Shown here one piece after another: positions 30,957-57,190 of a stretch of DNA of 64,000 nucleotides. The translations under genes and the position numbers were made by a program. Origin of the DNA: Kushneria pakistanensis (GTDB taxonomy: Bacteria > Pseudomonadota > Gammaproteobacteria > Pseudomonadales > Halomonadaceae); the NCBI RefSeq assembly GCF_014652795.1, contig NZ_BMZM01000004.1:186001-250000 (forward strand), given 5' to 3'. The number at the start of each line of letters is the position of its first letter. Within the stretch, counting starts at the first letter, position 1. The notes under the pieces were generated by a model. The model was not told the DNA's origin, made no database searches, and saw only the letters and a list, made by a program, of their open reading frames with translations.

Positions 30957-30970
30957 TATGATGTATGACA
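30957..30970 (+). promoter_or_regulatory. Operator site A of the acidic-sugar regulon
   Basis: TATGATGTATGACA, 172 bases before the dctP start at 31142. The first 13 bases are identical to four other sites in front of island operons. A TATAGT that could be a -10 box begins 17 bases upstream. AAAGTTCAATG begins exactly 36 bases upstream, as at site C. Confidence 0.75.
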
Positions 30971-31141
30971 AATTTAACCCCAGCCATGCCGTTCCCGTTC
31001 GTGCGGCTTCTCCTATTCGGCAGGCGGCAAATCTCTGATAACCCGCTGCAACCCCCTGACATGGCTACCTTTCTGCCCAGCGTGATGGGAACAACGCTGC
31101 CCGGCGAAATGCTTGATTACTCACCGTTAGGAGAGCATGTC

Positions 31142-32140
31142 ATGTCGATTGGATATTCCCTGAATCCTGTTCATTGTCTGCAGGCTGCTGCCGTTGTCGG
31201 CATGCTGGCTGCCATGACGATGCCGGCACAGGCTGATAACTGGCGCGGCTGGAACGTGCATCCGCAGGGTTACCCCAACAGTGAGGCGCTTGACAGCTTC
31301 GTCAAGGAGGTCACCGACAAGACCGACGGGCGCGTCAAGGCGAAGATCTTTCACAACGGTGTACTGGGAGATCAGCCCGATGCCATCGAACAGACCCGTA
31401 GCGGTGCCCTGAATTTCGCCAACTTCAACATGGGGCCGATGGGGCCGATCGTGCCGGAAACCAACGTGCTGTCGCTGCCGTTTCTGTTCAAGGACATTGA
31501 CGCCATGCACAAGGTCATGGATGGCGAGATCGGCCAGCGTTTTGCTGACGCGCTGGAAAGGAAAAACCTGATCGCCCTGTCCTGGTTCGATTCGGGCGCA
31601 CGCAGCGTCTACAACACCAAAAGGGCCATCAATGAGCCCGAGGACATGCAGGGGCTCAAGGTTCGGGTCATGAACAATGACCTCTACGTGGAGATGATCG
31701 ACGCGCTGGGTGGCAATGCCACGCCCATGGCCTATGGTGAGGTGTATCAGTCGCTCAAGACCGGCGTACTCGATGGCGCTGAAAACAACTTTCCCTCCTT
31801 TGAGTCCAGCGGTCATGACGAGATTGCCAAATATTTCTCCGAGACCGAGCACCTGATCCTGCCCGAGTGTCTGTGTATCGCCAAGCGTAGCTGGGACAAG
31901 CTGTCCGATCAGGATCAAAGGATCGTGCGTCAGGCAGCACTTGATGCCGCTACCCTGCAGCGCCAGCTCTGGCAGGAAAGCTCGAAGCAGAGTCGCGAGG
32001 ACGTCATTGCCGCCGGTGTAGAAATCAATGAAGTGGACAAGCCGGCCTTCCAGGCAAAAATGGAGCCGATCTACGCCGCCTTTGTCAAAAAACATCCCGA
32101 TCTTGAGCCCCTGCTCAACGATATTCGCAACGCACAGTAA
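31142..32140 (+). CDS. TRAP transporter solute-binding protein (DctP type), system 1
   Basis: Periplasmic receptor, 332 residues with signal peptide (cleavage probably after MPAQA). The family core is present, including the conserved arginine block GLKVRVMNND that salt-bridges a substrate carboxylate and the GVLDGAENN segment shared with uronate-type receptors. ATG 31142 is chosen for the TTAGGAG upstream; the frame is open further back but without a signal sequence. With the DctQ and DctM genes that follow it makes a complete TRAP importer. The operator upstream ties it to the uronate/aldarate regulon. Substrate inferred to be a uronate or similar sugar acid, not proven. Confidence 0.9.
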   Translation: MSIGYSLNPVHCLQAAAVVGMLAAMTMPAQADNWRGWNVHPQGYPNSEALDSFVKEVTDKTDGRVKAKIFHNGVLGDQPDAIEQTRSGALNFANFNMGPMGPIVPETNVLSLPFLFKDIDAMHKVMDGEIGQRFADALERKNLIALSWFDSGARSVYNTKRAINEPEDMQGLKVRVMNNDLYVEMIDALGGNATPMAYGEVYQSLKTGVLDGAENNFPSFESSGHDEIAKYFSETEHLILPECLCIAKRSWDKLSDQDQRIVRQAALDAATLQRQLWQESSKQSREDVIAAGVEINEVDKPAFQAKMEPIYAAFVKKHPDLEPLLNDIRNAQ

Positions 32141-32213
32141 AACAACAACAGCGAAGGGCGCGCGTTACTCCCGAAGATGACAGGGGTAATGCGTGCCCGG
32201 GAGTCTCCCCACC

Positions 32214-32747
32214 ATGAATCGTTCTACCGACCAGATCGAAGACATACCCCAAAAGCGATCGAGCACAGGCGTTGCAGGACGCATTCTCGATGGACTGGCC
32301 CATCTGTGCATCATGATCTCCGGTGCGCTGCTGGTGTTTCTGATCGTCTCGTTTGGCTGGCTGGTCTACGGCCGCTATGTACTCAACAACACGCCGACCT
32401 GGGTCGAGCAGTCCGCGCTGCTCATCGTGGTGTATATCACCTGCCTGGGCGCTGCCGCGGGAGTGCGTCACAACACGCACCTGAGCATCGACATGGTGCG
32501 TGAGGCGCTGCCGGCAGTGCCGCGGGCCATCATGTGTCATGTCGCCGATCTTTTCGTACTCGTCTTTGGCGTCTTCATGGCATGGCAGGGCACCAATCTG
32601 GTGCTGGATAACATGACCCGCGCGATTCCAATGATCGGGCTGTCGGAAAGCTGGCGGGCCGCACCGCTGGCCATCTGCGGGGTGCTGATGGTGCTGTTCG
32701 CCGGCGCCAATATCGTTGAGCGCCTTACCCATACCACAAGGGTGTAA
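32214..32747 (+). CDS. TRAP transporter small permease (DctQ type), system 1
   Basis: Four-helix membrane subunit of 177 residues that links receptor and large permease. The hydrophobic segments and the family block FGWLVYGRYVLNNTPTWVEQ, with the later GAAAGVRHNTHLSID, are clear. ATG 32214 is preferred to an in-frame GTG at 32193; GGGAG lies upstream. It lies 73 bases after dctP and five bases before dctM. Confidence 0.9.
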   Translation: MNRSTDQIEDIPQKRSSTGVAGRILDGLAHLCIMISGALLVFLIVSFGWLVYGRYVLNNTPTWVEQSALLIVVYITCLGAAAGVRHNTHLSIDMVREALPAVPRAIMCHVADLFVLVFGVFMAWQGTNLVLDNMTRAIPMIGLSESWRAAPLAICGVLMVLFAGANIVERLTHTTRV

Positions 32748-32752
32748 ACAGC

Positions 32753-34033
32753 ATGGGCCTGATGATCCTGTTTGGTGTTTTCTTTATCGGTCTGGTGGTT
32801 GGCGCGCCGGTAGCCTTTGCCGTGGGGCTGGCCGCCGTGGTGACCTTCCTGTATGAGGGGTTGCCACTCTTTGTCGGCTTTCAGCGCATTCTCTCCGGCA
32901 TCTCGGTGTTTTCACTGCTGGCGATCCCGTTTTTCATCTTTGCCGGCGAGCTGATGCTCCACGGCGGTATCTCCGACCGGCTGGTGCGGCTGGCCTCGGC
33001 CGCCGTCGGGCGCGTCCGCGGTGGCCTGGGGCTGGTCAACGTCAGCTCCTCGATGTTGTTCGGCGGGATTTCCGGCTCGGCCGTGGCCGACACTTCAGCA
33101 CTGGGTTCGATTCTGATTCCGGTCATGAAGGAGAAGGGCTACGACGCCGATTACGCCGTCAACGTGACGGTGACGTCCTCGATTGCTGGCGTCGTCATTC
33201 CTCCCAGCCACAACATGATTCTCTACGCCGTCGCGGCGGGCGGCGGTATTTCGGTGACCCAGCTGTTCATCGCCGGCGTGGTGCCGGGCATCCTGATGTG
33301 CGTGGCGCTGGCCGTGGCCGCCTACGTGGTGGCGGTCAAGCGGGGCTATCCGGCCGAGACCTTCCCGGGCTGGCGCGCCCTGTTGATCAGTCTGGTGGCC
33401 GCGCTACCAGGGCTGATGACAGCGATCATCATTGTCGGCGGGGTACTCTCGGGCATTCTGACCGTGACTGAATCGGGCGCCTTTGGTGCCATCTACGCCA
33501 TCGTGGTGACGGCACTGGTGTATCGCGAGCTGCGCTGGGACAACTTCAAGAAAGCGGTCTATCAATCAGTGCGCACCACCTCGCTGGTCATGATTCTGGT
33601 CGGCTGCGCCTCGGCGTTCTCCTATCTGCTGGCGCTCTACAGTGTGCCGGAGCTTTTGACCGATCTGCTGATGGGGATCTCCGATAATCCGCTTGTGATC
33701 CTCCTGTTGCTCAACGTGACCCTGTTGGCGCTGGGCATGATCATGGACATGGCGGCGCTGATCCTGATCTGCACGCCGATCTTTCTGCCGATCGCGATGC
33801 AGTTCGGCATGGACCCCATCCAGTTTGGCGTCGTCATGATGATCAACCTGGGCATGGGACTTTGCACGCCACCGGTCGGGGCCTGTCTGTTCGTGGGCAG
33901 CGTCATCGGCAAGATCAAGATGGAGCACGCCGTGCGCACCATCTGGCCGTTCTATCTGGCGCTCTTTGCCGTGCTGATGCTGGTGACCTACGTCCCCATG
34001 GTCTCCATGTGGTTGCCCGGGCTGATCGAATAG
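32753..34033 (+). CDS. TRAP transporter large permease (DctM type), system 1
   Basis: Ion-coupled transport subunit of 426 residues with about twelve hydrophobic segments. Typical DctM blocks are AIPFFIFAGELMLHGGISDRL, SGSAVADTSALGSI and, near the end, NLGMGLCTPPVGACLFVG. Sodium-driven in characterised members, which suits a halophile. Last gene of the operon, followed by a bidirectional terminator. Confidence 0.94.
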   Translation: MGLMILFGVFFIGLVVGAPVAFAVGLAAVVTFLYEGLPLFVGFQRILSGISVFSLLAIPFFIFAGELMLHGGISDRLVRLASAAVGRVRGGLGLVNVSSSMLFGGISGSAVADTSALGSILIPVMKEKGYDADYAVNVTVTSSIAGVVIPPSHNMILYAVAAGGGISVTQLFIAGVVPGILMCVALAVAAYVVAVKRGYPAETFPGWRALLISLVAALPGLMTAIIIVGGVLSGILTVTESGAFGAIYAIVVTALVYRELRWDNFKKAVYQSVRTTSLVMILVGCASAFSYLLALYSVPELLTDLLMGISDNPLVILLLLNVTLLALGMIMDMAALILICTPIFLPIAMQFGMDPIQFGVVMMINLGMGLCTPPVGACLFVGSVIGKIKMEHAVRTIWPFYLALFAVLMLVTYVPMVSMWLPGLIE

Positions 34034-34155: not shown

Positions 34156-36531
34156 TCAGGGCAAAAGCGGCACCGACGCATCGGCAGCGATCTGCTGACC
34201 ATTGACGATCAGCGTACGCCGGTCACCGGTGGGCACCTCGATGCGAAGCTCGTGATAGGCCGGACGATAGTGGCCCCGGGTCTGCCAGTCGAGATGAATG
34301 CTGTCATCGTCGCAGACCAGCTCCAGCGTCATGACCAGTGCGCCCGGCCCCTGATCGAGATGACTTTCGCCATCGTCATCGAAAACCGTGACAGTGCGCT
34401 GGCCCTGTTGGGCAAAGGGGTACACGCGCAGGGCGCGAACATCGTCGCGCTCGGCATCGACATGGGCGATACGCTCGGAGGTGGGAATGACAGTGCCGGC
34501 ACGGACAAAAAGCGGCAGGTGCTCAAGCGGGGCATCCACCGTAATGGTCGTGCCGGGGGCGAAGTGCTGATCTCCCCCGAAGGTGTACCAGCCATCATGA
34601 TTGTCCGGCAGATAGAGCGTACGTTCGCGCGCGTCCTGTTCCATGACCGTGGCGACCAGCAGATCACGACCGAGCAGAAACTCATCGTTTTCCTCAAACG
34701 TCTGCGCGTCATGTTCATGATCCAGCAGGGTCGGGCGGATCATTGGTTCATGCGCCTCATGAGCCTGCCATAGCAGGGTGTAGAGATAGGGCAGCAGGCG
34801 ATAGCGCAGCTCGATGGCCTGGCGCACGGCGTCTACGGCTTCCGGGTACATCCAGGGCTCGTTGACCGTGCCGTCATCGTTCCATGAATGAATGGTGAAG
34901 CGCGGATGCATGACGCCATTTTGCACCCAGCGAATGAAGAGTTCGGCATCCGGGCGGGGGCCGGCAAAGCCGCCCACATCGTGACCGATATTGGAGATGC
35001 CGCTCAGCGAAAGCCCCAGCCCCATGCGCTGGTTGTAGCGCAGCGTGCGCCATTCGGTGCGGTTGTCTCCCGTCCATGTCTGGGCATAGCGCTGAAGTCC
35101 CGGCCCACCCGAGCGCGTGATCAGAAAAGGGCGCTTGTCCGGCGCATGCCGGGCCTGGGCGTCATGAGATGCACGCACCATCAAAAGCGACAGTACCGGC
35201 TTGGCGACCGAGGCGGTCAGCGGGGTGCCAAACCCTGCCAGTCGCGCCTGCTGGTCGATGATCTGAAACTCGTTGTTGTCGTTCCAGCTGCTGTCGATGC
35301 CCAGCTCCAGCAGCTGCTTTTGCAGGTTGTCCTGCCACCACTGCTGGGTCGCCGGATTGGTGAAATCCAGATGCGAGCCATCAGCGTCCCAGAACGGCGA
35401 GATTTCCGGCGTGCCGGTGTCGGAATCGGCAACGAACAGCCCCTTGTCGGCAACCTCGTTATAGGCCGGATGATCCGTCAGCAGACAGGGCTTGATATTG
35501 GCGATCACCCGCATGCCGGCATCATGAAAGCGCTTTACCATGGCTTCGGGCGAGGGGACCTTGTCACGGTTCCAGGTGAAGACATAGCGCTTGGCACCGA
35601 TCGACGAGTAGCCCGAGGAGAGCTGGAACGAGTCGCAGGGGATGGCGTGCTGCTGACACAGGTCAACGAATTCGCCGAGCCGCTCCTGGGCGTTGGGGGC
35701 GTCAGTGTAGTGCATGGTCGAACCCGAATAGCCCAGTGACCATTTCGGGCCGAAGGCGACCCCGCCGGTGAGTCGGGTAAACTCCTTGACCACATCCAGC
35801 ATGGCCGGGCCGAGCAGAAACCACATGTCGAGATCGCCGTCCTCGGCGCGAAACGCACGATAGGGCGGGTGATAGTTGTCGAGCTCGTTGCCCAGATCAA
35901 AACGCGAGGTCGAGAGGTTGTCGTAGAAAATGCCGTAGGAAAGGCCCTCGGCTGTGCGGGTAATCGTAAAGGGAATGTGCTTGTACAGTGGGTCGGTACG
36001 GTCGGCGCGATAGCCCATGGCATCGAGCGTTCGCATTTCAAAACGTCGGCCGGAACGCTCCAGATCGCCGCTTTTTTCGCCCAGTCCGTAGTAGCGCTCC
36101 TCATTATTGCGGGCCATGTAGTGCTCGACGCCTGAGCCATGACGCGCTACGGCAATGCCGCCGGTGGATCGATCCCGGGCCAGGGTGATCCACTGGCCCT
36201 GATGGCGCACCGCCCACTCCAGTCGCAGGGGGCGGCGGACGGTCAGGCGCAGGTTCTCCATTTCAACGACGAGGCCATCGGCGGTCTCTTCCCAGCGCCA
36301 CGGCGGCGTATCGAATCCTTCAGTGGAGAGACGATTGCGCCCCTCGCGAGCGAGATCACCGTGCGGGTCGATCGACCAGGTGTTGGCGGGGTTGGGATGT
36401 TCAGGGCGATAAAGGAAGACACGGACGATATTCGAGGCCATTGGGAAAAGCACCATATGGTGCTTGCCGGTCTCGAGCACGAGGCGATCTTCCATGACGT
36501 CGTGAAGTGACCAGTCGGATAGAAAGCGCAT
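34156..36531 (-). CDS. Glycoside hydrolase family 31 (alpha-glycosidase), cytoplasmic
   Basis: Retaining alpha-glycosidase, 791 residues. The nucleophile is Asp418 in SSWNDNNEF and the acid/base Asp489 in TWTGDNRTEW; the RPFLITRSG and GHDVGGFAGP blocks are also family-typical. There is no signal peptide, so it works on something already imported. It starts ten bases after the stop of a TRAP DctM gene, in one operon with dctQM. A TRAP porter normally carries organic or sugar acids, so the substrate may be an alpha-linked glycoside bearing a carboxylate. Exact specificity (glucosidase, xylosidase, galactosidase or uronide-related) cannot be read from sequence. Confidence 0.9.
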   Translation of the reverse strand: MRFLSDWSLHDVMEDRLVLETGKHHMVLFPMASNIVRVFLYRPEHPNPANTWSIDPHGDLAREGRNRLSTEGFDTPPWRWEETADGLVVEMENLRLTVRRPLRLEWAVRHQGQWITLARDRSTGGIAVARHGSGVEHYMARNNEERYYGLGEKSGDLERSGRRFEMRTLDAMGYRADRTDPLYKHIPFTITRTAEGLSYGIFYDNLSTSRFDLGNELDNYHPPYRAFRAEDGDLDMWFLLGPAMLDVVKEFTRLTGGVAFGPKWSLGYSGSTMHYTDAPNAQERLGEFVDLCQQHAIPCDSFQLSSGYSSIGAKRYVFTWNRDKVPSPEAMVKRFHDAGMRVIANIKPCLLTDHPAYNEVADKGLFVADSDTGTPEISPFWDADGSHLDFTNPATQQWWQDNLQKQLLELGIDSSWNDNNEFQIIDQQARLAGFGTPLTASVAKPVLSLLMVRASHDAQARHAPDKRPFLITRSGGPGLQRYAQTWTGDNRTEWRTLRYNQRMGLGLSLSGISNIGHDVGGFAGPRPDAELFIRWVQNGVMHPRFTIHSWNDDGTVNEPWMYPEAVDAVRQAIELRYRLLPYLYTLLWQAHEAHEPMIRPTLLDHEHDAQTFEENDEFLLGRDLLVATVMEQDARERTLYLPDNHDGWYTFGGDQHFAPGTTITVDAPLEHLPLFVRAGTVIPTSERIAHVDAERDDVRALRVYPFAQQGQRTVTVFDDDGESHLDQGPGALVMTLELVCDDDSIHLDWQTRGHYRPAYHELRIEVPTGDRRTLIVNGQQIAADASVPLLP

Positions 36532-36541
36532 GTTGACCTCG

Positions 36542-37837
36542 TTAATTCAAAAGCAGGTTGGGCAGCGCAAGGCTGATCTGGGGGATATAGGTAATCAGAA
36601 GCAGCATCGCCAACAGTACAAAAAACATCGGAATCAGCGGTCGCACGACGCTGCTGATCGGCACGCCGGCAATGGAGCTGCCCACAAAAAGCGCACTCCC
36701 TACGGGCGGGGTGCAGATACCGATACACAGATTGAACGTCAGCACCACGCCGAAATGGACGGGGTCCATGCCGAACTGGGTAACAATTGGCAAGAAGATC
36801 GGGGTGAAAATCAAAAGCGCCGGGGTGATGTCCATGAACATGCCGATACACAGAATCACCAGGTTGATCAAAAGCAGAATCACCAGTGGATTATCGGAAA
36901 GACCCAGCAACAAATCGGAAAGTTGCTGGGGAATGCTTTCAAGCGACATCGACCAGGACATGGCACCGGAGACCGCAATCAACGGCAGCACGATGGCCGT
37001 GGTCATGGCTGCATCCAGCACAATGGTCGGCAGGGTGCGAAAGGTGACGGTGCGATAGATGGCCATGGTCAGCACCAGCGTATACACCACCGCAATGGCC
37101 GAGGCCTCGGTCGCGGTAAAGACGCCCGTGATGATGCCGCCAATCACGATGATCATCAGCAGCACCGAGGGAATGGCGTGTAACAGTGTGGTCACGACGT
37201 CCTTGCCGGTAGGGCGTGAAGAGGTCGGATAGCCGCGGCGTTTGGCAATCACACCGGCCACCACCATGAGCCCCAGACCCATCAGAAGACCAGGCAGATA
37301 GCCGGCCACAAACAGCGCCGCAATGGAGGTGCCGCCGGACACCAGCGAGTAGACGATAAAGGTAGAGCTTGGGGGAATGAGAAGCCCTGCCGGGCTGGAG
37401 GCAATATTGACGGCTGCAGCGTAGCCGGGCTCGTAGCCCTCGCGCTTTTGCAGCGGGGTCATGACGCTGCCAACAGCGGCGCAGGAAGCCACGGCCGAGC
37501 CCGAGATGGAACCAAACAGCATGTTGGCGACCACGTTGCAATGCGCCAGGCCGCCCGGCAGGCGCCCCACGATCAGTCTGGCCAGGTCGATCAGGCGGAT
37601 GGCAATACCGCCGTGGTTCATCAGACTGCCGGCCAGAATGAAAAAGGGAATCGCCAGCAGCGTAAAGCTGTCCAGCCCTGCCAGCATGCGCTGAGCCACG
37701 ACATAAGCACTGGTATCCAGCGAGAAGGCAGTGCACAGCGTGGCAAGCGATGCCAGGCCAATGGCATAGATAATGGGCAGGCCCAGCATCATTAAAAGAA
37801 AAAACGTCCCGAACAGGAGGGCGGCTTCGATCACCAT
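36542..37837 (-). CDS. TRAP transporter large permease (DctM type), system 2
   Basis: Membrane subunit of 431 residues with the DctM signatures AIPFFILAGSLMNHGGIAIRL, SGSAVASCAAVGSVM and LCIGICTPPVGSALFVG. Its ATG overlaps the stop of dctQ by a few bases. Downstream it is followed closely by the GH31 gene. The matching receptor gene is transcribed in the opposite direction at 38527. Confidence 0.93.
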   Translation of the reverse strand: MVIEAALLFGTFFLLMMLGLPIIYAIGLASLATLCTAFSLDTSAYVVAQRMLAGLDSFTLLAIPFFILAGSLMNHGGIAIRLIDLARLIVGRLPGGLAHCNVVANMLFGSISGSAVASCAAVGSVMTPLQKREGYEPGYAAAVNIASSPAGLLIPPSSTFIVYSLVSGGTSIAALFVAGYLPGLLMGLGLMVVAGVIAKRRGYPTSSRPTGKDVVTTLLHAIPSVLLMIIVIGGIITGVFTATEASAIAVVYTLVLTMAIYRTVTFRTLPTIVLDAAMTTAIVLPLIAVSGAMSWSMSLESIPQQLSDLLLGLSDNPLVILLLINLVILCIGMFMDITPALLIFTPIFLPIVTQFGMDPVHFGVVLTFNLCIGICTPPVGSALFVGSSIAGVPISSVVRPLIPMFFVLLAMLLLITYIPQISLALPNLLLN

Positions 37838-38373
37838 GATGTGTCACCTTCCTTTGGGGTTGGCATATCCCTTGACCCGGCAAGCCGCAGCATCTGCAGA
37901 CAGGCATGAAAAGCGATAAAGGTACCGGATAACGGCAGTGCCAGATAAATCCAGCCCATGTACCAGCCCAGAACGGGCGTGGTCTGCGCGGTTGAAAGCG
38001 TCGTCACGACCAGGCTTCCACCGCCATAGACCATGATGTAGCCGGCAAAAAACAACACCAGCAGCTGAAGAAAGCACAGAAGCCATCGCCTGGCGGGCCA
38101 GGCAAGTGCTTCAGGAAGCAGGTCAATGGAAAGGTGGCGCATTCTGCCCGAGGCGTAGGCCGCACCCAAAAGCCCCAGCCAGATCAGGGCAAAGCGGGCC
38201 ATTTCATCAGTGGCAGTGGTCGGGGTATCGGTAAGATAGCGACTACCGACTTGGACGGTCACCACTACCACCAGCAGGAAGAAAAGAACGATCAGCATTG
38301 CGCCCAGAAGACGGTCAAGAAAGGATGACACCCTGTTCAATGCGAGAAGAAATCCCTGAGAAGAGGGCATCAA
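37831..38373 (-). CDS. TRAP transporter small permease (DctQ type), system 2
   Basis: Four-helix membrane subunit of 180 residues with the block VQVGSRYLTDTPTTATDEMA and a basic N-terminal stretch. A strong GGAGGAG precedes the ATG, and operator site B starts 13 bases upstream of the ATG, next to this ribosome binding site. First gene of the dctQ-dctM-GH31 operon. Confidence 0.9.
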   Translation of the reverse strand: MMPSSQGFLLALNRVSSFLDRLLGAMLIVLFFLLVVVVTVQVGSRYLTDTPTTATDEMARFALIWLGLLGAAYASGRMRHLSIDLLPEALAWPARRWLLCFLQLLVLFFAGYIMVYGGGSLVVTTLSTAQTTPVLGWYMGWIYLALPLSGTFIAFHACLQMLRLAGSRDMPTPKEGDTSW

Positions 38374-38385
38374 ATCTCCTCCTTG

Positions 38386-38398
38386 TATGATGTATGAC
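38386..38398 (+). promoter_or_regulatory. Operator site B, shared by the divergent TRAP system 2 promoters
   Basis: TATGATGTATGAC in the 153-base gap between dctQ (minus) and dctP (plus). It is close enough to the dctQ start to overlap its promoter or 5' leader and lies 129 bases before dctP. Confidence 0.72.
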
Positions 38399-38526: not shown

Positions 38527-39525
38527 GTGATTAATCGTCGTAAATTTTGCACGCTGACGGCCGGCACCCTTCTTTTAGGGCCAATGACATCTTCATGGGC
38601 AGCGCGATCCGACTCGCATGAATTACGGTTGAGTCATAACCTGACCACCGATCATTCCGTGCACAAGGCCATGGCCATGATGGGGGAGCGCCTTTCTGAA
38701 CTGACCAACGGGGCGGTGACGCTGCGTATTTACCCCGGCGCGCAGCTGGGCACACAGCGTGAATCCGTCGAGCTGGTACAGCGTGGCATTCTGGACATGG
38801 CCAAGACCAATGCCAGCGAGCTGGAAGCCTTTGACCCGGTCTTTTCGGTATTAAATGTTCCCTATCTGTTCACGAGCCGGGATCATTTCTACCAGGCGCT
38901 GACCGGCGAGATCGGTCGCGAACTCTTTCAGGCCTCGCGTAACCGGGGCTTTGAAGGAGTAACCTTTTATGATTCCGGGGCGCGCAGTTTTTACGCCACG
39001 CGTCCAATCCATACCCCTGATGATCTTTACAACATGAAGATCCGGGTCCAGCCCAGTGCCACCGCGATTGCCATGACGCAATTGCTGGGCGCGAGTCCGA
39101 CACCGCTGGATTTCGGCGATCTTTATACTGCACTGCAGCAGGGCGTCGTGGATGGCGCCGAGAACAATCCCACGGCACTGGTAACGGCCAATCATGGGGA
39201 AGTTTCCAAATTCTTTACCCTTGATGAGCACACGCGGGTGCCCGACATGCTTGTCATTTCATCAAAAGCGCTGGAGCGATTGTCGAGTGCACAGCGCGAG
39301 GCGCTCTATCAGGCGGCGCATGAATCAATGATGTTTCAAAAGGATGCCTGGGAAAGTGCCAGCGAGCAGGCAATCGCCACGGCCAAGGCTGACATGGGGG
39401 TTGAATTCATTCAGGTCGATCAGGCCTTGTTTGCCGACAGGACCCGGCCGCTTCGTAATGACATTGCCGCACAATCGGCGCAATCTAAAAAAATGATTCA
39501 AAAAATCGAGCGTCTGTCGGCATGA
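38527..39525 (+). CDS. TRAP transporter solute-binding protein (DctP type), system 2
   Basis: Periplasmic receptor of 332 residues. The N-terminus MINRRKFCTLTAG has a twin-arginine-like RRKF motif before a short hydrophobic stretch ending SSWAA, so export may be by Tat rather than Sec. The core includes MKIRVQPSATAIAM (conserved carboxylate-binding Arg) and QGVVDGAENN. It starts at GTG 38527 with AGGAG about ten bases upstream. It is separated from its own dctQM and oriented away from them; uronate dehydrogenase follows on the same strand. Likely a uronate receptor (inference). Confidence 0.9.
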   Translation: MINRRKFCTLTAGTLLLGPMTSSWAARSDSHELRLSHNLTTDHSVHKAMAMMGERLSELTNGAVTLRIYPGAQLGTQRESVELVQRGILDMAKTNASELEAFDPVFSVLNVPYLFTSRDHFYQALTGEIGRELFQASRNRGFEGVTFYDSGARSFYATRPIHTPDDLYNMKIRVQPSATAIAMTQLLGASPTPLDFGDLYTALQQGVVDGAENNPTALVTANHGEVSKFFTLDEHTRVPDMLVISSKALERLSSAQREALYQAAHESMMFQKDAWESASEQAIATAKADMGVEFIQVDQALFADRTRPLRNDIAAQSAQSKKMIQKIERLSA

Positions 39526-39549
39526 ATCATGCGGTGTCCAGCCCCGAAG

Positions 39550-39579
39550 GTTGATATCTCAAAAAGTTGATATCTCAAA
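39550..39579 (+). repeat. Tandem repeat in front of udh
   Basis: GTTGATATCTCAAA occurs twice in a row, at 39550-39563 and 39566-39579, with a period of 16 bases. The second copy runs into the AAAGGAG ribosome binding site of udh. Confidence 0.9.
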
Positions 39580-39589
39580 GGAGAATGTC

Positions 39590-40387
39590 GTGCTCAATCG
39601 TCTGTTGGTGACCGGCGCTGCCGGTGGGCTGGGTCAGGCCCTTCGCCCGTATCTGTCGCGTCTGGCTCGCCATGTGCGGCTGTCCGATATCGTGGCGCTG
39701 GAAGGAGCGCAGGATCACGAGGAGATCGTGCGCTGTGATCTGGCCGATGCCGACAGTGTCAGCGCGCTGGTGCGCGACTGTGACGGCATCGTTCATCTGG
39801 GCGGTATCTCGGTAGAAAGCCCCTGGCAGAGCATCCTGCAGGCCAATATCATTGGTACCTATAACCTGTATGAAGCGGCCAGACACTATGGTCGCCCGCG
39901 GGTCGTCTTTGCCAGCTCCAACCACACCATCGGTTATTACCCGCGTACGACGCACATCGATACTGACTCACCCCGTCGGCCCGATTCCCTTTACGGGGTC
40001 TCCAAATGCTTTGGAGAGGATCTCGCCAGCCTCTACTACCACAAGTTCAATATCGAAACCCTCAACGTGCGAATTGGCTCGTGCTTCCCCAAACCGGCCG
40101 ACACCCGAATGATGGCCACCTGGATGAGCGTGGAAGATTTCGTGGCACTGCTGGAGCGGGCGTTCGTGGCACCGAAGCTGGGCTGTACGGTGATCTACGG
40201 CGTCTCGAACAACAGCGAACGCTGGTGGGACAACCGCAAGTCCTCGTTTCTGGGCTGGGTGCCCAGGGACAGTTCCGAACCCTGGCGTGCCGAAACCGAA
40301 GCCGCGGCAGGGGAGATTGACCCGGATGATCCGGCCGTCGTCTACCAGGGGGGCAAGTTTGCCAGTACCGGCCATCCCGACGATTGA
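39590..40387 (+). CDS. udh: Uronate dehydrogenase (NAD-dependent)
   Basis: Oxidises D-galacturonate or D-glucuronate at C1 to the aldarolactone, the first step of oxidative uronate breakdown. The 265 residues form a short-chain dehydrogenase/epimerase-like fold: NAD motif VTGAAGGLGQAL, the block ASSNHTIGYYPR, and the catalytic Tyr-x3-Lys in SLYGVSKCFGEDLA. Blocks such as LNVRIGSCFPKP and CTVIYGVSNNSERWWDN are specific to the bacterial Udh group. GTG 39590, six bases after AAAGGAGA, is preferred to the upstream in-frame ATG at 39551. It probably shares the dctP transcript. No aldarolactonase gene is adjacent. Confidence 0.93.
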   Translation: MLNRLLVTGAAGGLGQALRPYLSRLARHVRLSDIVALEGAQDHEEIVRCDLADADSVSALVRDCDGIVHLGGISVESPWQSILQANIIGTYNLYEAARHYGRPRVVFASSNHTIGYYPRTTHIDTDSPRRPDSLYGVSKCFGEDLASLYYHKFNIETLNVRIGSCFPKPADTRMMATWMSVEDFVALLERAFVAPKLGCTVIYGVSNNSERWWDNRKSSFLGWVPRDSSEPWRAETEAAAGEIDPDDPAVVYQGGKFASTGHPDD

Positions 40388-42091: not shown

Positions 42092-42128
42092 TCCTGGCTG
42101 CAGGGCCACATGACGACTGGAGAACAAC

Positions 42129-45294: not shown

Positions 45295-45309
45295 CCGCTG
45301 GAGTCCACC

Positions 45310-50010: not shown

Positions 50011-50059
50011 GAGGTTATTCGAGGGGCGGACCAGGCCCTTCGTATAATGGCTTTAAAAG

Positions 50060-50073
50060 TATGATGTATGACA
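50060..50073 (+). promoter_or_regulatory. Operator site D, upstream of kdgD
   Basis: TATGATGTATGACA, 57 bases before the kdgD ATG. A perfect TATAAT begins 17 bases upstream (50043-50048), so the operator would lie just downstream of the transcription start. No good -35 box was found. Confidence 0.78.
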
Positions 50074-50129: not shown

Positions 50130-51041
50130 ATGACGTTTTCACGAGCTGACGTTACGCGTGCCGCAGGCGATGGCCTGCTCTCCTTCCCGGTTACGGACTT
50201 TGATGATGCCGGCCGATTTGATGGCGAAAGCTACCGCAAGCGTATTGCATGGCTGCTTGAGTACGACATTTCCACACTGTTTGTGGCCGGCGGTACGGGG
50301 GAATTTTTCAACCTGGGCCTTGAAGAGTTCGGTGAGATCGTCCGTATTGCCGTAGAAGAGACAAGGGGCCGTGTTCCCGTCATCGCCAGTGCCGGACAGA
50401 GCATCACCATGGCAAAGGCCCATGCAGCCGCCGCCGAAGCCGCCGGTGCTGACGGCATCCTGCTGATGCCGCCTTACCTGACCGAGTGCTCGCAGGAAGG
50501 CATCGTTGAATACGCCGCCCAGATCTGTGAGTCCACCTCGCTCAATGTCATCTACTACAACCGTGCCAACGGCGCGCTGGAAGCTCAGGCCGTCAAGGCG
50601 CTGGCCGAGCGTTGCCCCAACCTGATCGGTCTCAAGGATGGGCGCGGCGACATTCAATCGCTCAACACCATTATCAAGACCGTGGGCGATCGCCTGATCT
50701 ACATCGGTGGCGTCCCCACTGCCGAAATCTTTGCAGAAGCCTATCTCTCCATCGGCGTGAACACCTACTCCTCGGCAGTGTTCAACTTCGTGCCGGAGAT
50801 GGCCGTGCACTTTTACAAGTCCCTGCGCGCCGGCGATCACGACACCGTGGCCCGTCTGACCAATGACTTTTTCATTCCCTTCGTTGCCCTGCGCGATACG
50901 TGCCGTGGCTATGCCGTCAGCCTGGTGAAGGCCGGTGCCGCCCAGGTGGGATATCCGGCAGGTAACGTTCGTGCCCCGTTGACCATGCCCAATGCTGAAG
51001 AAGTCGAGCAGCTCAAGACACTGATCGAGCGCGTACGTTAA
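50130..51041 (+). CDS. kdgD: 5-dehydro-4-deoxyglucarate dehydratase
   Basis: Class I aldolase-superfamily enzyme (DapA-like) that dehydrates and decarboxylates 5-keto-4-deoxyglucarate to 2-oxoglutarate semialdehyde. The 303 residues include GDGLLSFPVTDFDDAGRFD at the start, the VAGGTGEFFNL block, the catalytic Tyr in VIYYNRAN and the Schiff-base Lys in LIGLKDGRGD. The frame extends back to 50061 through the operator, but ATG 50130 with AGAGGA upstream is the family start. First gene of a five-gene operon ending with the next enzyme of the pathway. Confidence 0.95.
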   Translation: MTFSRADVTRAAGDGLLSFPVTDFDDAGRFDGESYRKRIAWLLEYDISTLFVAGGTGEFFNLGLEEFGEIVRIAVEETRGRVPVIASAGQSITMAKAHAAAAEAAGADGILLMPPYLTECSQEGIVEYAAQICESTSLNVIYYNRANGALEAQAVKALAERCPNLIGLKDGRGDIQSLNTIIKTVGDRLIYIGGVPTAEIFAEAYLSIGVNTYSSAVFNFVPEMAVHFYKSLRAGDHDTVARLTNDFFIPFVALRDTCRGYAVSLVKAGAAQVGYPAGNVRAPLTMPNAEEVEQLKTLIERVR

Positions 51042-51056
51042 TCATTCACGACGGTT

Positions 51057-51086
51057 TGCCCGCATGGACCACGACCCATGCGGGCA
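51057..51086 (+). other. Intercistronic hairpin between kdgD and tctC, system 2
   Basis: Eleven-pair perfect stem TGCCCGCATGG / CCATGCGGGCA (51057-51067 and 51076-51086) with an eight-base loop and no T-run. It is probably an mRNA-stabilising or attenuating structure within the operon. Confidence 0.6.
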
Positions 51087-51106
51087 GGCGACAAGGAGCC
51101 GATGGC

Positions 51107-52051
51107 ATGAAAAAGATACTGAGCGTACTGGGCGCTGCCACCATGCTGGCCAGCAGCATGGCCATGGCCGCCGATTATCCTTCCAAGAATATTCAGTTCA
51201 TCGTGCCCTGGTCCGCCGGTGGCGGCGCGGATACGGCCGTGCGCGCCATGCAGCCCGGTCTTGAAAAGGCGCTGGGCACGACCATCGTGGTGCGCAACAT
51301 TGGCGGCGGCGGTGGGGCAGTCGGTTTCTCACGTGCTGTAGCCTCAAAGCCGGATGGTTATACCGTTACCATCCCGACCAATGCCACCTTTACTCTGGAA
51401 GGGCTGGGCAACGTGGCCTTTACACGGGATGACTTCGAGTTTATCGCCCGCGTACTGGTAGAGCCCTACGTCATGGCCGTGCGTCCCAACGACGACTGGT
51501 CGGACCTGGAAAGCCTGGTCAATGAGCGCAAGGCATCAGGCGAGCCGCTTCGCATGGGGGCCTCCGGTGTGGGCTCTTCCACACATATCGTGTCACTGAT
51601 GCTGGCCCGCGAGCTGGGCATCAAGATGGAAGTCATCCCGTTTGATAGCGGCTCGGCGGCAGTATCCGCGGCCATGGGTGGTCATATCGATGGTGTGGTA
51701 CTCAACCCGTCGGAAGTGATTTCGGCCATTGACGGCAACCGCCTCAAGGCGATCGTCACCACCGGTGAAGAGCGCAGTGGCGTACTGCCAGATGCGCCAA
51801 CCATGCATGAGGCCGGCTACGACTTCGAACTGGCGCAGTGGCGCGGTATCGCAGCACCCAAGGGTCTTGATCCGGCCATCGAGGAGCAATGGGTCGAAGC
51901 CGTCAAGCAGATGGTCGAGGATCCGCAGTTCCAGAAAACCGCCCGCAGTATCGGCACCGATGTCAGTCCTCTGTATGGCGAAGAGCTGGACCAGTTTGTC
52001 GAAAGAACTTCCAAACCGTTGATCGAAGAAGCCGGCGCGATTCGCCAGTAA
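51107..52051 (+). CDS. TTT transporter periplasmic receptor (TctC family), system 2
   Basis: Secreted receptor of 314 residues with signal MKKILSVLGAATMLASSMAM. It shares the blocks YPSKNIQFIVPWSAGGGADT and GGGGAVGFSRAVASKPDGYT with the other receptors, and WRGIAAPKGLDPAI in lobe two. The in-frame start at 51056 would precede the signal peptide, so 51107, after AAGGAG, is used. It lies between kdgD and its membrane subunits, so the cargo is probably an aldarate. Confidence 0.92.
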   Translation: MKKILSVLGAATMLASSMAMAADYPSKNIQFIVPWSAGGGADTAVRAMQPGLEKALGTTIVVRNIGGGGGAVGFSRAVASKPDGYTVTIPTNATFTLEGLGNVAFTRDDFEFIARVLVEPYVMAVRPNDDWSDLESLVNERKASGEPLRMGASGVGSSTHIVSLMLARELGIKMEVIPFDSGSAAVSAAMGGHIDGVVLNPSEVISAIDGNRLKAIVTTGEERSGVLPDAPTMHEAGYDFELAQWRGIAAPKGLDPAIEEQWVEAVKQMVEDPQFQKTARSIGTDVSPLYGEELDQFVERTSKPLIEEAGAIRQ

Positions 52052-52072
52052 AACGGCCGGGGAGTATTGAAC

Positions 52073-52591
52073 ATGGTCAGAACACGCAGTGATGCACTGT
52101 TTCATCTGGTACTGCTGGCGCTGGCGGGGTGGTTTCTGCAGGAAGCCTGGAACCTGCCGGCCAATGCCGCGGGGGGAAGTCTTTCCCCCGCGTTTTTCCC
52201 CCGCGCCATATCCTCAGCCATCGCTATTTTGCTGTTGATCTCAATGGTTCGTGGCCTGGTTGCAGGCACGTTGCTGGCGCGCGATACCTCCGACGAGGCG
52301 GCCACTTCGCCAGCCTGGGTGCCGGTACTGGCCTGGGGTGCGGTGGCGCTTTTGCTGGTGCTGTATGCCGTACTGCTGGAGCCACTGGGTTATGTGGTGT
52401 CCACGGCGCTGTTTCTCTTTTTGTGCGTGGCCATCATCAGCGTGTTGTCACGACAGCGTGGCGACGGTATCCCGATGGTGCGCGTGCTCATGCTGGCGCT
52501 GTTTTCTGCCGTCGTGTCAGTGGCCATCTTTTTGATCTTCTCGGTGGGGTTCGAAATCGTGCTGCCCACCATCGGCGTGATGGGGGTATGA
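52073..52591 (+). CDS. TTT transporter small membrane subunit (TctB family), system 2
   Basis: Four-helix subunit of 172 residues with the block LEPLGYVVSTALFLFLCVAI. ATG 52073, eight bases after GGGGAG, is preferred to an in-frame TTG at 52067. It ends one base before the tctA ATG, so the two are translationally coupled. Confidence 0.9.
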   Translation: MVRTRSDALFHLVLLALAGWFLQEAWNLPANAAGGSLSPAFFPRAISSAIAILLLISMVRGLVAGTLLARDTSDEAATSPAWVPVLAWGAVALLLVLYAVLLEPLGYVVSTALFLFLCVAIISVLSRQRGDGIPMVRVLMLALFSAVVSVAIFLIFSVGFEIVLPTIGVMGV

Positions 52592-52592
52592 C

Positions 52593-54083
52593 ATGGGAGA
52601 TTATGTAGAAGCGCTCGGACTGGTCTTTCAATGGCACGTGCTGCTGGTCATCGGCGGCGGTACGCTGCTGGGTCTGATCATGGGCGCACTGCCGGGGCTG
52701 ACGGCCGCGATGGCGATCGCGCTGCTGCTGCCGCTGACGTTTGGCATGCCGCCGGTCATGGGCATGGGCATGCTGCTGGGCACACTGTGCGGGGCCATTG
52801 CCGGCGGGTCGGTGTCGGCCACCCTTCTGAATATTCCCGGTACGCCGTCATCGGTGGCCACCACGCTTGATGCCTTCCCCATGGCGCGTCGGGGTGAGGC
52901 CGGTCGGGCGCTGGGTATCTGTATCGTGGCTTCGTTCGTCGGCGGTGTCTTCAGTGCCGTGGTGCTGAGTCTGCTGGCACCGCCCATTGCCGATTTTGCG
53001 CTGCGCTTTGGCCCGGCCGAATATTTCGCCCTGAGCGTCTTCGGGCTGGTAATCATTGCGTCTGTCTCCAGCAAGTCGCTGATCAAGGGGCTGGTGGCGG
53101 GTCTGATCGGCCTGCTGATCGCCACGGTTGGCACCGATCCGGTCGCCGGGGTACAGCGCTATACATTCAATAACCTGTCACTGCTGACCGGCGTCAATCT
53201 ACTGCCGGCGCTGATTGGTCTGTTTGCCGTCTCCCAGGTGCTCAAGGATGTGGTCGACTACTTCGGTGGCGGGCCTGTCGAGCACAGCAAGAACAAAATG
53301 GACCACGCCCGGCCGCGCTGGCTGGAAACCCTGCGCTACTGGAAGGTGCTGCTGTCGAGCTCGGTGATCGGCACGATCGTGGGCGCCATCCCGGGCGCGG
53401 GCGGCAGTATCGGCTCGTTTCTCTCCTACGATCAGGCCAAGAAGATGTCGAAAACGCCGGAGAAATTCGGCACCGGACATCCCGAAGGGATCGTGGCCTC
53501 GGAGTCTTCCAACAATGCGCTGGTGGGCGGGGCGCTGATTCCGATGCTGACACTGGGCATTCCGGGGGAGGCCGCCACGGCGGTACTGATGGGCGGTCTG
53601 ATGATCCAGGGCATCAGTCCCGGACCGACGCTTTTTACCGATAATGGCTCGATCATCTACGGCATCTTCATTGCCTTCTTTGTTGCCAACATCTTCATGC
53701 TGCTGATCCAGTGGTTCGGGATCCGGATGTTCGTCAAGGTGCTGCAGGTACCGCGCAAGCTGCTGATGGCGCTGATTCTGATGTTCTGCGTGATCGGGGT
53801 GTATGCCGTGGATGCCGACATCTTCAACGTCTATCTGATGCTGGGCTTCGGGGGGCTGGGCTATTTCCTCAACCGCTATGACTTTGGGACTGCGCCGGTC
53901 ATTCTGGGCCTGATTCTGGGGCCGATCGCCGAGTCCAATATTCGTCGTGCCCTCATGCTCTCCGGCGGTGACTGGAGCGTGCTGGTCACGCGTCCGATCA
54001 GCCTGGTGTTTCTGCTGGTCGCGGCGGCCTTTCTCTTTTTCACCCTGTGGCAGAACCGTCGCCAAACGACCCCCCATTCATAG
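52593..54083 (+). CDS. TTT transporter large permease (TctA family), system 2
   Basis: Permease of 496 residues. Hallmarks are GALPGLTAAMAIALLLPLTF, LLNIPGTPSSVATTLDAFPM and GAIPGAGGSIGSFLSYDQA. It is closely similar to the system 1 permease throughout, including the FLNRYDFGTAPVILGLILGP block, which suggests duplication. Followed after 12 bases by a second glucarate dehydratase. Confidence 0.94.
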   Translation: MGDYVEALGLVFQWHVLLVIGGGTLLGLIMGALPGLTAAMAIALLLPLTFGMPPVMGMGMLLGTLCGAIAGGSVSATLLNIPGTPSSVATTLDAFPMARRGEAGRALGICIVASFVGGVFSAVVLSLLAPPIADFALRFGPAEYFALSVFGLVIIASVSSKSLIKGLVAGLIGLLIATVGTDPVAGVQRYTFNNLSLLTGVNLLPALIGLFAVSQVLKDVVDYFGGGPVEHSKNKMDHARPRWLETLRYWKVLLSSSVIGTIVGAIPGAGGSIGSFLSYDQAKKMSKTPEKFGTGHPEGIVASESSNNALVGGALIPMLTLGIPGEAATAVLMGGLMIQGISPGPTLFTDNGSIIYGIFIAFFVANIFMLLIQWFGIRMFVKVLQVPRKLLMALILMFCVIGVYAVDADIFNVYLMLGFGGLGYFLNRYDFGTAPVILGLILGPIAESNIRRALMLSGGDWSVLVTRPISLVFLLVAAAFLFFTLWQNRRQTTPHS

Positions 54084-54095
54084 GAGAAGACCTGT

Positions 54096-55424
54096 ATGTC
54101 ACTGCCTACCATTACACGCATGACGATTGTGCCGGTCGCAGGCCATGACAGCTTTCTGCTCAATCTGAGCGGTGGTCATGCTCCCTGGTTCGTGCGCTGT
54201 GTCCTGATCCTTGAAGACAACGCCGGCAATCGCGGCGTGGGCGAAATCCCCTCCAGTGAGGGCATTTTGAAAGGGCTCGAGAAGTGCCGTTCGCTGGTAG
54301 AAGGCACCAATCTCAACGCCTGGCGCGGCACCCTCAACAATGCCAGAAACCTGCTGGCCCAGGCGGGGCCGGAAGAGCGCGGCCGTCAGACCTTTGACCT
54401 GCGGGTCGCGGTGCATGTATTGACGGCGATCGAATCGGCGCTGCTGGATCTTTATGGTCAGGCTGTCGACATGCCGGTGGCTGATCTGCTGGGGCGCATG
54501 GGGCGCCAGCGTGACGAGGTCGAAGCCCTGGGCTATCTCTTCCTGCTCGGAGACCCGAACAAGACAAATCTGCCCTATCCGAAGGCCGACAACCCGCGGG
54601 ACGACTGGGATCGGCTACGCTGTCAGGAAGCCCTGACGCCCGAGGCCGTGGCAGAGCTTGCTCGCGCCGCGCATGAGCGTTATGGCTTTCGCGACTTCAA
54701 GCTCAAGGGCGGGGTACTCCCCGGTGAGCAGGAGGCCGACTGCATTCGTGCCATGCACGAAATCTTCCCCGAGGCGCGTCTGACGCTCGACCCCAACGGG
54801 GCCTGGTCACTGGAGGAAGCTGTAAGGGTGCTGTCACCCATTCGTGACATCCTGAGCTATGCCGAAGACCCCTGTGGTCAGGAGGGCAGCTGGTCCGGTC
54901 GTGAAACCATGGCCGAGTTCAAGCGCCGCACCGGCCTTCGTACGGCTACCAACATGATCGCCACCGACTTCAAGCAGCTGCAGTACGCCGCGCAAATGAA
55001 CGCAGTCGACATTCCGCTGGCGGACTGTCACTTCTGGACCATGCAGGGCGCGGTCATGGTCGGTGAGCTCTGCCATGAGTGGGGCATGACATGGGGCTCG
55101 CACTCAAACAACCACTTTGATATTTCACTGGCCATGATGACGCACGTGGCAGCCGCCTGCCCGGGTGAAATTACCGCCATTGATACCCACTGGATCTGGC
55201 AGGACGGTCAGCGCCTGACCGAGGCACCCTTTGAAATTCGCGACGGCAAGCTGACCGTGCCGAAAACGCCCGGACTGGGTGTCACGCTGGACCAGGACAA
55301 GCTTGATGAGGCGCATGCGCTTTATCGCTCGCTGGATGTTCGGGCCCGCAACGATGCCACGGCCATGCAGTATCTGATCGACGGCTGGGCTTTCGACCCC
55401 AAGCGCCCCGCGCTGGTGCGCTGA
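54096..55424 (+). CDS. gudD: Glucarate dehydratase, second copy
   Basis: Enolase-superfamily enzyme of 442 residues, related to the first copy at 40748 and to E. coli GudD. Key blocks are [44 protein letters not shown] and [15 protein letters not shown], so the catalytic residues are intact and the ATD form of E. coli is kept. It differs from copy 1 in the substrate-facing N-terminal domain ([18 protein letters not shown]), so specificity may be shifted. It could be the GudX-like type or act on a different aldarate. Within the kdgD operon. Confidence 0.9.
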
Positions 55425-55461
55425 ACTCGGCAAGATGCAACGCAACCATCAGGAGAGAAAG

Positions 55462-57039
55462 ATGCAACTGACAGGCGAACTTCTTATTGGACAGCACGCC
55501 ATCAAGGGCACGCGTGACCCGATTCAGGCCATCAACCCGGCGACCGGCGAAAAACTGGAGCCGGCCTATAACGGTGGCAGCAGCAATGAGGTCGAACAGG
55601 CCTGTGCGCTGGCCTGGCAGGCCTTTGACCAGTACCGGGAGACAACGCTTGAAGATCGTGCGGTCTTTCTGGAAACCGTTGCCGAAGAGATCGAGGCGAT
55701 CGGTGATGCGCTGGTCGAGCGCGCGGTTGCAGAAACCGGCCTGCCTGAAGGACGTATTCAGGGCGAGCGCGCGCGTACCTGCGGTCAGCTGAGGCTGTTC
55801 GCACGCGTGGTGCGTGATGGCGAATGGCTTGACGTGCGTGTTGATCCTGCCATGCCGGACCGTCAGCCGATGCCGCGTACCGACCTGCGCCAGCGTCATA
55901 TTGGCCTGGGCCCGGTGGTCGTGTTCGGCGCCAGCAACTTCCCGCTGGCCTTCTCGGTCGCCGGTGGTGATACGGCCTCGGCATTCGCGGCTGGTTGCCC
56001 GGTCATCGTCAAGGCCCACGGTGCACACCCGGGGACTTCCGAGCTGGTCGGCCGTGCCATTCAGAAGGCCGTTGCCCGCTGCAACCTGCCCGAAGGGGTC
56101 TTTTCCCTGCTGTATGGTTCGGGCCGTGACGTGGGTACCGCACTGGTCAACGACAAGCGCATCAAGGCCGCCGGCTTTACCGGTTCACGCAGCGGTGGGA
56201 TGGCGCTCTGGAAGGTGGCACAGTCACGTTCCGAGCCGATTCCCTTCTACGCCGAGATGAGCAGCATCAACCCGGTCTTCCCGCTGCCGGAAGCGCTCAA
56301 GGCGCGCGGTCGCGATATGGGCAAGGCGTTTGTCGGCTCATTGAACATGGGTGCCGGCCAGTTCTGTACCAATCCGGGGCTGGTGATTGCCATCAAGGGC
56401 GAGACGCTGGAGACCTTCAAGCAGGCAGCCACGGAAGCGCTGGCAGATGCCAACGCCCAGACCATGCTCACGCCCGGGATCAGCGATGCCTATCAGGAAG
56501 GTGTCAAGCGGCTCTCGCAGCATAACGGCGTAACCGAGCTGGGCCGCGGGCCGACAGGTGAGGGCGCCTACATGTGTCAGGCGGGGCTCTACACGACCTC
56601 GGCGCAGACTTTCCTGGCCGATACCGAGCTGCAGGATGAAGTGTTCGGTGCCACATCGCTGATCATCGAGTGTGTTGACCAGCAGGAGCTGCTGGCAGTG
56701 ACCGAGCATCTGGAAGGCCAGCTGACCGCCACGCTGCAGATGGATGATGCCGACCTGGACAGCGCCCGTGCGCTGGTACCGATTCTGGAGCGCAAGGCGG
56801 GCCGTATTCTGGTCAACGGCTGGCCGACCGGTGTTGAAGTCAGTGATGCCATGGTACACGGCGGACCCTTCCCGGCGACGTCCGACGGTCGTGCCACTTC
56901 GGTCGGTACTGCAGCCATCAAGCGCTTTTTGCGCCCGGTCTGCTATCAGAACCTGCCGGACGCGCTGCGTCCCGAAGCCCTGCGTGATGCCAACCCCTAT
57001 CAGCTCAATCGGCTGGTCGATGGCAAGCGCGAAGGCTGA
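55462..57039 (+). CDS. 2-oxoglutarate semialdehyde dehydrogenase (2,5-dioxovalerate dehydrogenase)
   Basis: NAD(P)-dependent aldehyde dehydrogenase of 525 residues that completes the pathway to 2-oxoglutarate. Blocks typical of this group are [36 protein letters not shown] (cofactor Lys), [11 protein letters not shown] (general base Glu) and [11 protein letters not shown] (catalytic Cys). The N-terminus [11 protein letters not shown] is also typical. ATG 55462 follows AGGAGAG; an earlier in-frame ATG at 55435 is less likely. Last gene of the kdgD operon, followed by a terminator. Confidence 0.93.
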
Positions 57040-57073
57040 TTTTCCGGCCTGACAATCCATCTGGATTGAATCG

Positions 57074-57103
57074 AAAGGGTCTGCCGCAGGGCAGGCCCTT
57101 TTT
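57074..57103 (+). terminator. Intrinsic terminator of the kdgD operon
   Basis: Ten-pair stem AAGGGTCTGCC region / GGCAGGCCCTT region (57074-57085 with 57090-57101), one G-T pair, loop GCAG, then TTTTT. It lies 35 bases after the aldehyde dehydrogenase stop. Confidence 0.9.
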
Positions 57104-57177
57104 GTGTTTATACGATGGTCGATGCATGAACTAAAGGAGCACAGGCAAGCGCATAAAAAAGCGTATTATCGCTTATG

Positions 57178-57190
57178 TATGATGTATGAC
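57178..57190 (+). promoter_or_regulatory. Operator site E, upstream of TTT system 3
   Basis: TATGATGTATGAC, 35 bases before the tctC ATG. A possible -10 box TATTAT lies 14 bases upstream (57164-57169). The operon it controls runs toward the GntR gene at 61270. Confidence 0.75.

Follow-up and report, generated by a model that had tools for sequence, protein, structure and literature searches.

In a 64,000-nucleotide stretch of the Kushneria pakistanensis genome (contig NZ_BMZM01000004.1, positions 186,001 to 250,000; hereafter, the window), a 13-base sequence, TATGATGTATGAC, stands upstream of five transcription units for the uptake and breakdown of acidic sugars. These five sites are very probably the operators of R1, a GntR-family regulator encoded by the last gene of the fifth unit, and would represent, in Kushneria, the GguR regulon that was predicted earlier for Halomonas. 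On sequence grounds, the sites are a real and well-conserved set of predicted operators, and R1 is well supported as their putative cognate, autoregulating repressor.

The five exact copies lie at 30957, 38386, 40592, 50060, and 57178, all on the plus strand, and no further copy appears in the window when up to two mismatches are allowed; none of 100 shuffles of the window gave five matches (mean of 0.63 at up to two mismatches). The whole genome (3,519,858 bases in 10 contigs) holds the same five exact copies and no others, while an independent-base model predicts 0.03 copies and a reversed-pattern control has no exact match. At up to two mismatches, there are 42 matches in the genome (5 exact, 1 with one mismatch, and 36 with two), compared to 5 for the control. 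The genes 3′ of the sites were identified with Pfam and NCBIfam profiles; together with the window scan, they bear out an earlier, sequence-only reading of this DNA, which had described five plus-strand copies upstream of these same units and none elsewhere in the window.

Within the family Halomonadaceae, the exact 13-mer is found in 127 of 275 genomes (reversed-pattern control, 1), and a G-to-T variant, GTATGATGTATTAC, in 45 of the 275 (control, 0). R1 is present at E<1e-60 in 147 of them. Operator and R1 occur together in 141 genomes, R1 alone in 6, the operator alone in 10, and neither in 118, giving an odds ratio of 277 and a Fisher p of 3.7e-57, a statistic that ignores relatedness; five weak R1 matches (E of 1e-44 to 1e-48, in G117, G118, G124, G126, and G223) were left out of this count. 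Five of the six genomes with R1 only have a site with one mismatch (the sites of G082 were not positioned relative to genes). Beyond the family, a sample of the order (293 genomes, including 12 family members) showed the 16-mer TGTATGATGTATKACA in 7 of these members and in 2 other genomes, with the control in 1. In one of these two, G555, from another family, it precedes kdgD-gudD, and a 46% identical R1 orthologue adjoins; the other, G396, lacks a close R1. In a sample of the class, TGTATGATGTATKACA was found in none of 257 other genomes (258 searched, including the window's own).

The site also stands before R1 itself. Among 89 distinct R1-type upstream regions, 16 carry it at up to one mismatch, while chance would give about 0.4 by a hand estimate; the set consists of R1 matches of at least 110 bits and may include second copies and relatives of 40 to 46% identity. 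In 7 of the 16, the site lies in reverse sense roughly 33 to 42 bases before R1, and these include the exact GTATGATGTCATAC in G024 and G066, in both of which the site is an inverted repeat. Four Kushneria genomes lack the third tripartite tricarboxylate transporter (TTT) unit here, and three of them (G122, G123, and G127) have a site with one mismatch 180 to 197 bases before R1. The co-occurrence, the sites before R1, and the orthologue beside operator-kdgD-gudD in another family all favor the earlier proposal that the protein encoded at 61270 is the regulator, as predicted here. Separately, a degenerate TTGTACGGTATGATT at 61232 to 61246, shortly before R1 in the window, may be a decayed site.

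R1 has a GntR winged helix-turn-helix domain (PF00392, 71.6 bits) and an FCD domain (PF07729, 88.9 bits), both over the cut-off, and its nearest named relatives, at 88 to 91% identity, are from K. phyllosphaerae, K. indalinina, an uncultured Kushneria, and K. avicenniae. By sequence, the nearest solved chains are 9jpj (E of 1.4e-28) and then NanR 6on4. An AlphaFold model of R1 has a mean predicted local distance difference test score (pLDDT) of 78 and a predicted template modeling score of 0.58, and its Foldseek matches are FCD-type GntR structures with modest TM-scores, DhdR 9jpj being first by E-value and VanR and NanR lower. The top NCBIfam model is NanR PRK03837, at 111.8 bits, below its cut-off of 260. 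Residue 20 of R1 aligns with residue 29 of NanR, which has a 32-residue N-terminal extension for cooperativity; the start of R1 is modelled at low confidence, the first 20 residues averaging a pLDDT under 50.

What, then, does the site look like? The conserved sequence exceeds 13 bases and reads TTGTATGATGTAT[G/T]ACA[A/T]. A gene-strand motif search with 60 random starts over 38 kdgD upstream regions (43 before near-duplicates were removed) returned TTTTAGTTGTATGATGTATGACAA as the best motif, with a site in every region; the right box, GT-N3-AC, was recovered there without fixed letters, and one of the 38 sites ends in AT and not AC. In 69 nonredundant sites (from 80), which are all within one mismatch and whose internal variation is thereby capped, each position of GTATGATGTAT-AC is one base at a frequency of at least 0.90, and the 12th base is G (0.62) or T (0.38); TT and A[A/T] predominate in the flanks. 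A pattern that fixes only GTATGATGT and AC matched 78 times in 1.79 Mb of fetched sequence, with N3 as ATG in 46 matches, ATT in 25, CAT in 4, AAT in 2, and CTT in 1, so that 77 of 78 have one of the first four triplets, the pattern itself fixing GT and AC. The loci for the variant, motif, and orientation counts were fetched around R1 or known sites (112 sequences for the N3 count) and were partly chosen as lacking the exact 13-mer, and thus the proportions of variants are not population frequencies.

Reverse complementing ATG and ATT gives CAT and AAT, so that in sites with the latter two the right box is flipped and the left half is unchanged. Across relatives, the site is GTATGAT followed by GT-N3-AC, and with CAT as N3 it becomes an inverted repeat. 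That six of the seven matches other than ATG and ATT should be CAT or AAT has a probability near 1e-8 under equal triplets (calculated by hand), although this figure overstates the case because one promoter, shared by two Kushneria genomes, accounts for two of the six. Since the right box occurs in flipped form beside an unchanged left half, the site is best read as the usual palindrome of FCD-type GntR regulators with a strongly conserved extra half-site.

The sequence-only reading had instead described a direct repeat, TATGA-N2-TATGA, as an unusual recognition mode. R1 might truly read such a repeat with one dimer on each copy, as NanR does on GGTATA, a possibility that we regard as unlikely but worth weighing. 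The heptads GTATGAT and GTATGAC are alike at six of seven positions in the window's sites, but the 12th base is T (the GTATTAC type) in 17 of 38 kdgD sites (such genomes are overrepresented in this set), and in six other sites the right copy is GTCATAC or GTAATAC, which breaks the repeat and keeps GT-N3-AC. In favor of a direct repeat, orientation is fixed at most sites, with 57 of 64 facing a known target start on their own strand, 2 facing away, and 5 undecided; against it, the site before R1 in G024 and G066 is an inverted repeat. The standing of NanR as second-best solved relative and top family model of R1, albeit below the cut-off, also fits a direct repeat. So does the recurrence of TGT 7 bases further upstream, as for a possible third heptad, in 9 of the 38 promoters of kdgD, although TGT is also at −3 in 8 of the 38. 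The repeat is lost across relatives, with a GTATTAC right copy in many genomes and GTCATAC in some, and the ATT, CAT, and AAT variants led us to reject a direct repeat as the essential feature. Nor would it have been unusual for this family; direct-repeat operators are already known for NanR, NagQ, and FarR, going by the accessible text of the literature.

Returning to the palindrome with its extra half-site, one can tentatively envision, at somewhat less than even confidence, that the GguR operator is built from two fused modules, the half-site GTATGAT, which stays fixed, and a dimer box, GT-N3-AC, with a core that may face either way. One regulator could therefore read sites resembling direct repeats (N3 as ATG) before catabolic genes as well as the inverted repeats (N3 as CAT) that precede its own gene in some genomes. 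The half-site would be nearly as indispensable as the palindrome, perhaps seating a second dimer across the transcription start.

Several observations weigh against R1 as the reader of these sites. R1 (147 genomes) and kdgD (152 of 275) are nearly coextensive, with 146 genomes in common and 6 kdgD-bearing genomes without R1 at E<1e-60, and because of this, co-occurrence alone cannot tell R1 from another linked factor. The exact site is present without R1 at that threshold in ten genomes; G124 and G126 among them have a 40 to 41% identical R1 relative beside gudD-kdgD, while in the other eight there is none or one of only 32% identity. G119, of the same genus, has a 70% identical R1, lacks kdgD, and has no site at up to one mismatch (the end of a contig is about 240 bases away from its R1), and G120, the fourth Kushneria genome without the third TTT unit, has no site at up to one mismatch before R1. 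Finally, the DNA-binding residues of R1 show no covariation with the G/T variant, the key residues hardly varying: S59 R60 T61, R64 E65, and R79 R80 G81 are invariant among 115 R1 proteins, and the 15 columns of highest mutual information fall outside the DNA-binding domain. Both the G and the T variants are found in 21 R1-bearing genomes. In five of the six kdgD-bearing genomes without R1 (G117, G118, G124, G126, and G223), a 40 to 41% identical R1 relative adjoins gudD and kdgD. The gudD-kdgD promoter has the inverted form GTATGATGTCATAC in the two that belong to Kushneria, G124 and G126 (around L265 7483 and L266 6981), and the direct form lies elsewhere in both genomes; in G117, G118, and G223, the locus shows only sites with at least two mismatches.

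The sites might be read by another regulator: R2 (62062), the LacI-family protein at 47594, or one encoded elsewhere. We consider this very improbable. R2 adjoins R1, is of the same family, and is linked to the operator (both in 124 of the 275 genomes, R2 only in 54, the operator only in 27, and neither in 70), but its odds ratio is 6 compared to 277 for R1. With a relative at E≤1e-40 in 178 of the genomes, R2 is present where the operator is absent (for instance, in G003, G004, and G017 to G021) and missing at this threshold where it is present (for instance, in G002, G006, G008, G009, G011, and G015), and we rejected it on this far looser distribution. The lacI-galD pair lies inside the cluster, yet LacI relatives of at least 57% identity occur at 5 of 59 loci fetched around R1 or known sites and, in a second locus set, only in Kushneria and Salinicola. 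In the window, none of the genes lacI, galD, and R2 has an exact site immediately upstream.

The position of the site relative to promoters is consistent with an operator. In Kushneria, a −10-like TATAAT ends 10 bases before the operator 4 site of kdgD and is identical in the 7 promoters compared; TATAATGG[CT]TTTAAAA precedes the site in 7 of 7 Kushneria kdgD loci compared. Across the 69 sites, a −10 lying wholly upstream is best at offset −13, with a combined score of 5.64 of 12 (mean, 4.03; standard deviation, 0.43), and T, T, and G are enriched at −36 to −34 of the site alignment. With such an upstream −10, the site would begin at about the transcription start, as the operator of a repressor would. 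That the conserved sequence is itself a promoter element is hardly credible: TATGAT matches TATAAT at five of six positions and, taken as the −10, gives the top hexamer score overall, but its best −35 match averages 2.29 of 6, under the mean over offsets of 2.49, a −10 wholly upstream has its best combined score at −13, the perfect TATAAT of Kushneria kdgD lies upstream, and conservation spans 18 bases, including TGT-N3-ACA.

We propose that R1 binds the full conserved site, the right part, TGT-N3-ACA, serving as an ordinary palindrome for one dimer and the left part, TTGTATGA, which lies 7 bases upstream, as an additional half-site that probably takes a second dimer. Because the site is just downstream of the −10 element, bound R1 would block initiation. 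A uronate, an aldarate, or a pathway intermediate may then release R1, leading to joint induction of the transporters, Udh, GudD, KdgD, the semialdehyde dehydrogenase, and R1 itself. The gene set is that of the oxidative uronate/aldarate route to 2-oxoglutarate. The shared site before transporters and enzymes supports the suggestion, made from the window alone, that uptake and breakdown are switched together as one regulon.

Predicted operators and genes of the regulon in the window
Feature	Position	Strand	Context or basis
Operator 1 (ATATGATGTATGAC)	30956..30969	+	5′ of dctP1-dctQ1-dctM1
TRAP transporter 1 (dctP1, dctQ1, dctM1)	31139..34033	+	Pfam/NCBIfam
dctQ2, dctM2, glycoside hydrolase family 31 gene	34156..38370	−	Divergent from operator 2
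Operator 2 (GTATGATGTATGAC)	38385..38398	+	Between divergent dctQ2-dctM2-GH31 (−) and dctP2-udh (+)
dctP2 and uronate dehydrogenase (udh)	38527..40387	+	Closest solved for udh: 3ay3, 6mfh, 3rft
Operator 3	40591..40604	+	5′ of gudD1-tctC1B1A1-3-dehydro-L-gulonate 2-dehydrogenase
gudD1, TTT transporter 1, 3-dehydro-L-gulonate 2-dehydrogenase	40748..46329	+	NCBIfam
Operator 4	50059..50072	+	5′ of kdgD-tctC2B2A2-gudD2-aldehyde dehydrogenase
kdgD, TTT transporter 2, gudD2, aldehyde dehydrogenase	50130..57039	+	NCBIfam/Pfam
Operator 5	57177..57190	+	5′ of tctC3B3A3-2-hydroxyacid dehydrogenase-gntR (R1)
TTT transporter 3 and 2-hydroxyacid dehydrogenase	57222..61173	+	Pfam/NCBIfam
R1, FCD/FadR-subfamily GntR regulator, proposed GguR	61270..62022	+	Last gene of unit 5

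Uronate dehydrogenase is assigned by its likeness to 3ay3 (E of 1.1e-145) and 3rft (E of 3.2e-98), and the nearest solved chain to DctP1 is 4p1l (E of 1.2e-148); udh is found together with dctP1QM in many relatives. The kdgD product (5-dehydro-4-deoxyglucarate dehydratase) exceeds its model cut-off, as does the 3-dehydro-L-gulonate 2-dehydrogenase (353.2 bits; cut-off, 316). Both GudD proteins are glucarate dehydratase-like, at 702.8 bits for gudD1 and 685.3 bits for gudD2, under the NCBIfam cut-off of 828.7. A stem resembling a terminator, at 57073 to 57102, divides operator 5 from the preceding unit. Operator 2 probably serves dctQ2-dctM2-GH31 as well, because the site at 38386, in the divergent intergenic region, abuts a Shine-Dalgarno-like AAGGAGGAG before the likely minus-strand dctQ2 ATG at 38370. 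The GH31 gene itself (34156 to 36531, minus strand) is 3′ of dctQ2-dctM2 and is probably also under operator 2; a glycoside may feed the regulon.

Some further features of the window deserve mention. The first base of operator 1 is A, as it is in six other Kushneria dctP1 promoters compared. A palindrome, TATGTCCTACATA, at 30907 to 30919, lies 36 bases before operator 1 and is kept as TATGT[C/T]CTA[C/T]ATA in the same six promoters; TATGTNNTACATA, taken from it, has a single copy in the genome. AAAGTTCAATG occurs at 30921 to 30931 and 40556 to 40566, in each case 25 bases before TATGATG, in operators 1 and 3, respectively. The dctP1 and gudD1 promoters thus share this element, and other Kushneria largely retain it, but 13 of 100 shuffles equal the window count at up to one mismatch. 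Between 46392 and 50010, within the cluster and with no GguR site directly 5′, are the LacI-family regulator, an L-talarate/galactarate dehydratase gene, and an orphan TctC. R2, the second FCD GntR gene (62062 to 62871, minus strand), is convergent with R1.

Although the regulon had been called new, a novel GntR-family GguR regulon with matching gene content was predicted in Halomonas HL-48 and HL-93 (Leyn et al. 2017, PMC5507952). In the accessible text of that paper, GguR is a GntR-family transcription factor in a galactarate/glucarate cluster that controls an operon with TctABC and, in HL-93, also an Udh/Gli/Gci/UxuPQM operon. In Kushneria, R1 belongs to unit 5, next to the units with kdgD and gudD. 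Operator 3 stands before gudD-tct and operator 4 before kdgD-tct-gudD, and the uronate branch is represented by udh behind operator 2 and dctP1, the presumed UxuP counterpart, behind operator 1. This gene content, set beside the accessible part of the published description, suggests that R1 is the orthologue of GguR. Kushneria differs in having five sites in 26 kb, three TTT and two TRAP systems, and the divergent TRAP-GH31 unit. Among the titles listed in searches of an open library, none concerned an experiment with this regulator, and the literal motif strings were met in one unrelated paper on human cells. The operator sequence and likely regulator of sugar-acid use would now be fixed across much of the Halomonadaceae, coregulation allows functions to be assigned to transporters and enzymes, and an inducible switch for halophiles suggests itself.

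NanR of E. coli on (GGTATA)3 is similar, as far as the accessible text goes (PMC8012715), in being a GntR-type repressor of an acidic-sugar regulon with repeated half-sites, bound as cooperative dimers at an operator downstream of the polymerase site; it differs in having another repeat in three copies, and R1 is below the NCBIfam NanR cut-off. The nearest solved structure, the DhdR-DNA complex 9jpj (its chain record reads pyruvate dehydrogenase complex repressor), is nearest by both sequence and Foldseek E-value, yet its TM-scores are 0.48 to 0.58 and about one third of residues are identical. The closest parallel for the site itself may be the FadR-type palindromes with extra half-sites 7 to 12 nucleotides from the center, which Suvorova et al. 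2015 (PMC4494728) describe, in the accessible text, alongside named direct-repeat exceptions. The operator proposed for R1 has the same GT-N-AC palindrome and extra box, but that box is the weaker element in the described sites, whereas here its conservation roughly equals that of the palindrome. The accessible text leaves the function of the extra half-site to later experiment, and the natural variants ATG, ATT, CAT, and AAT provide a built-in test of its use by FCD-type GntR regulators.

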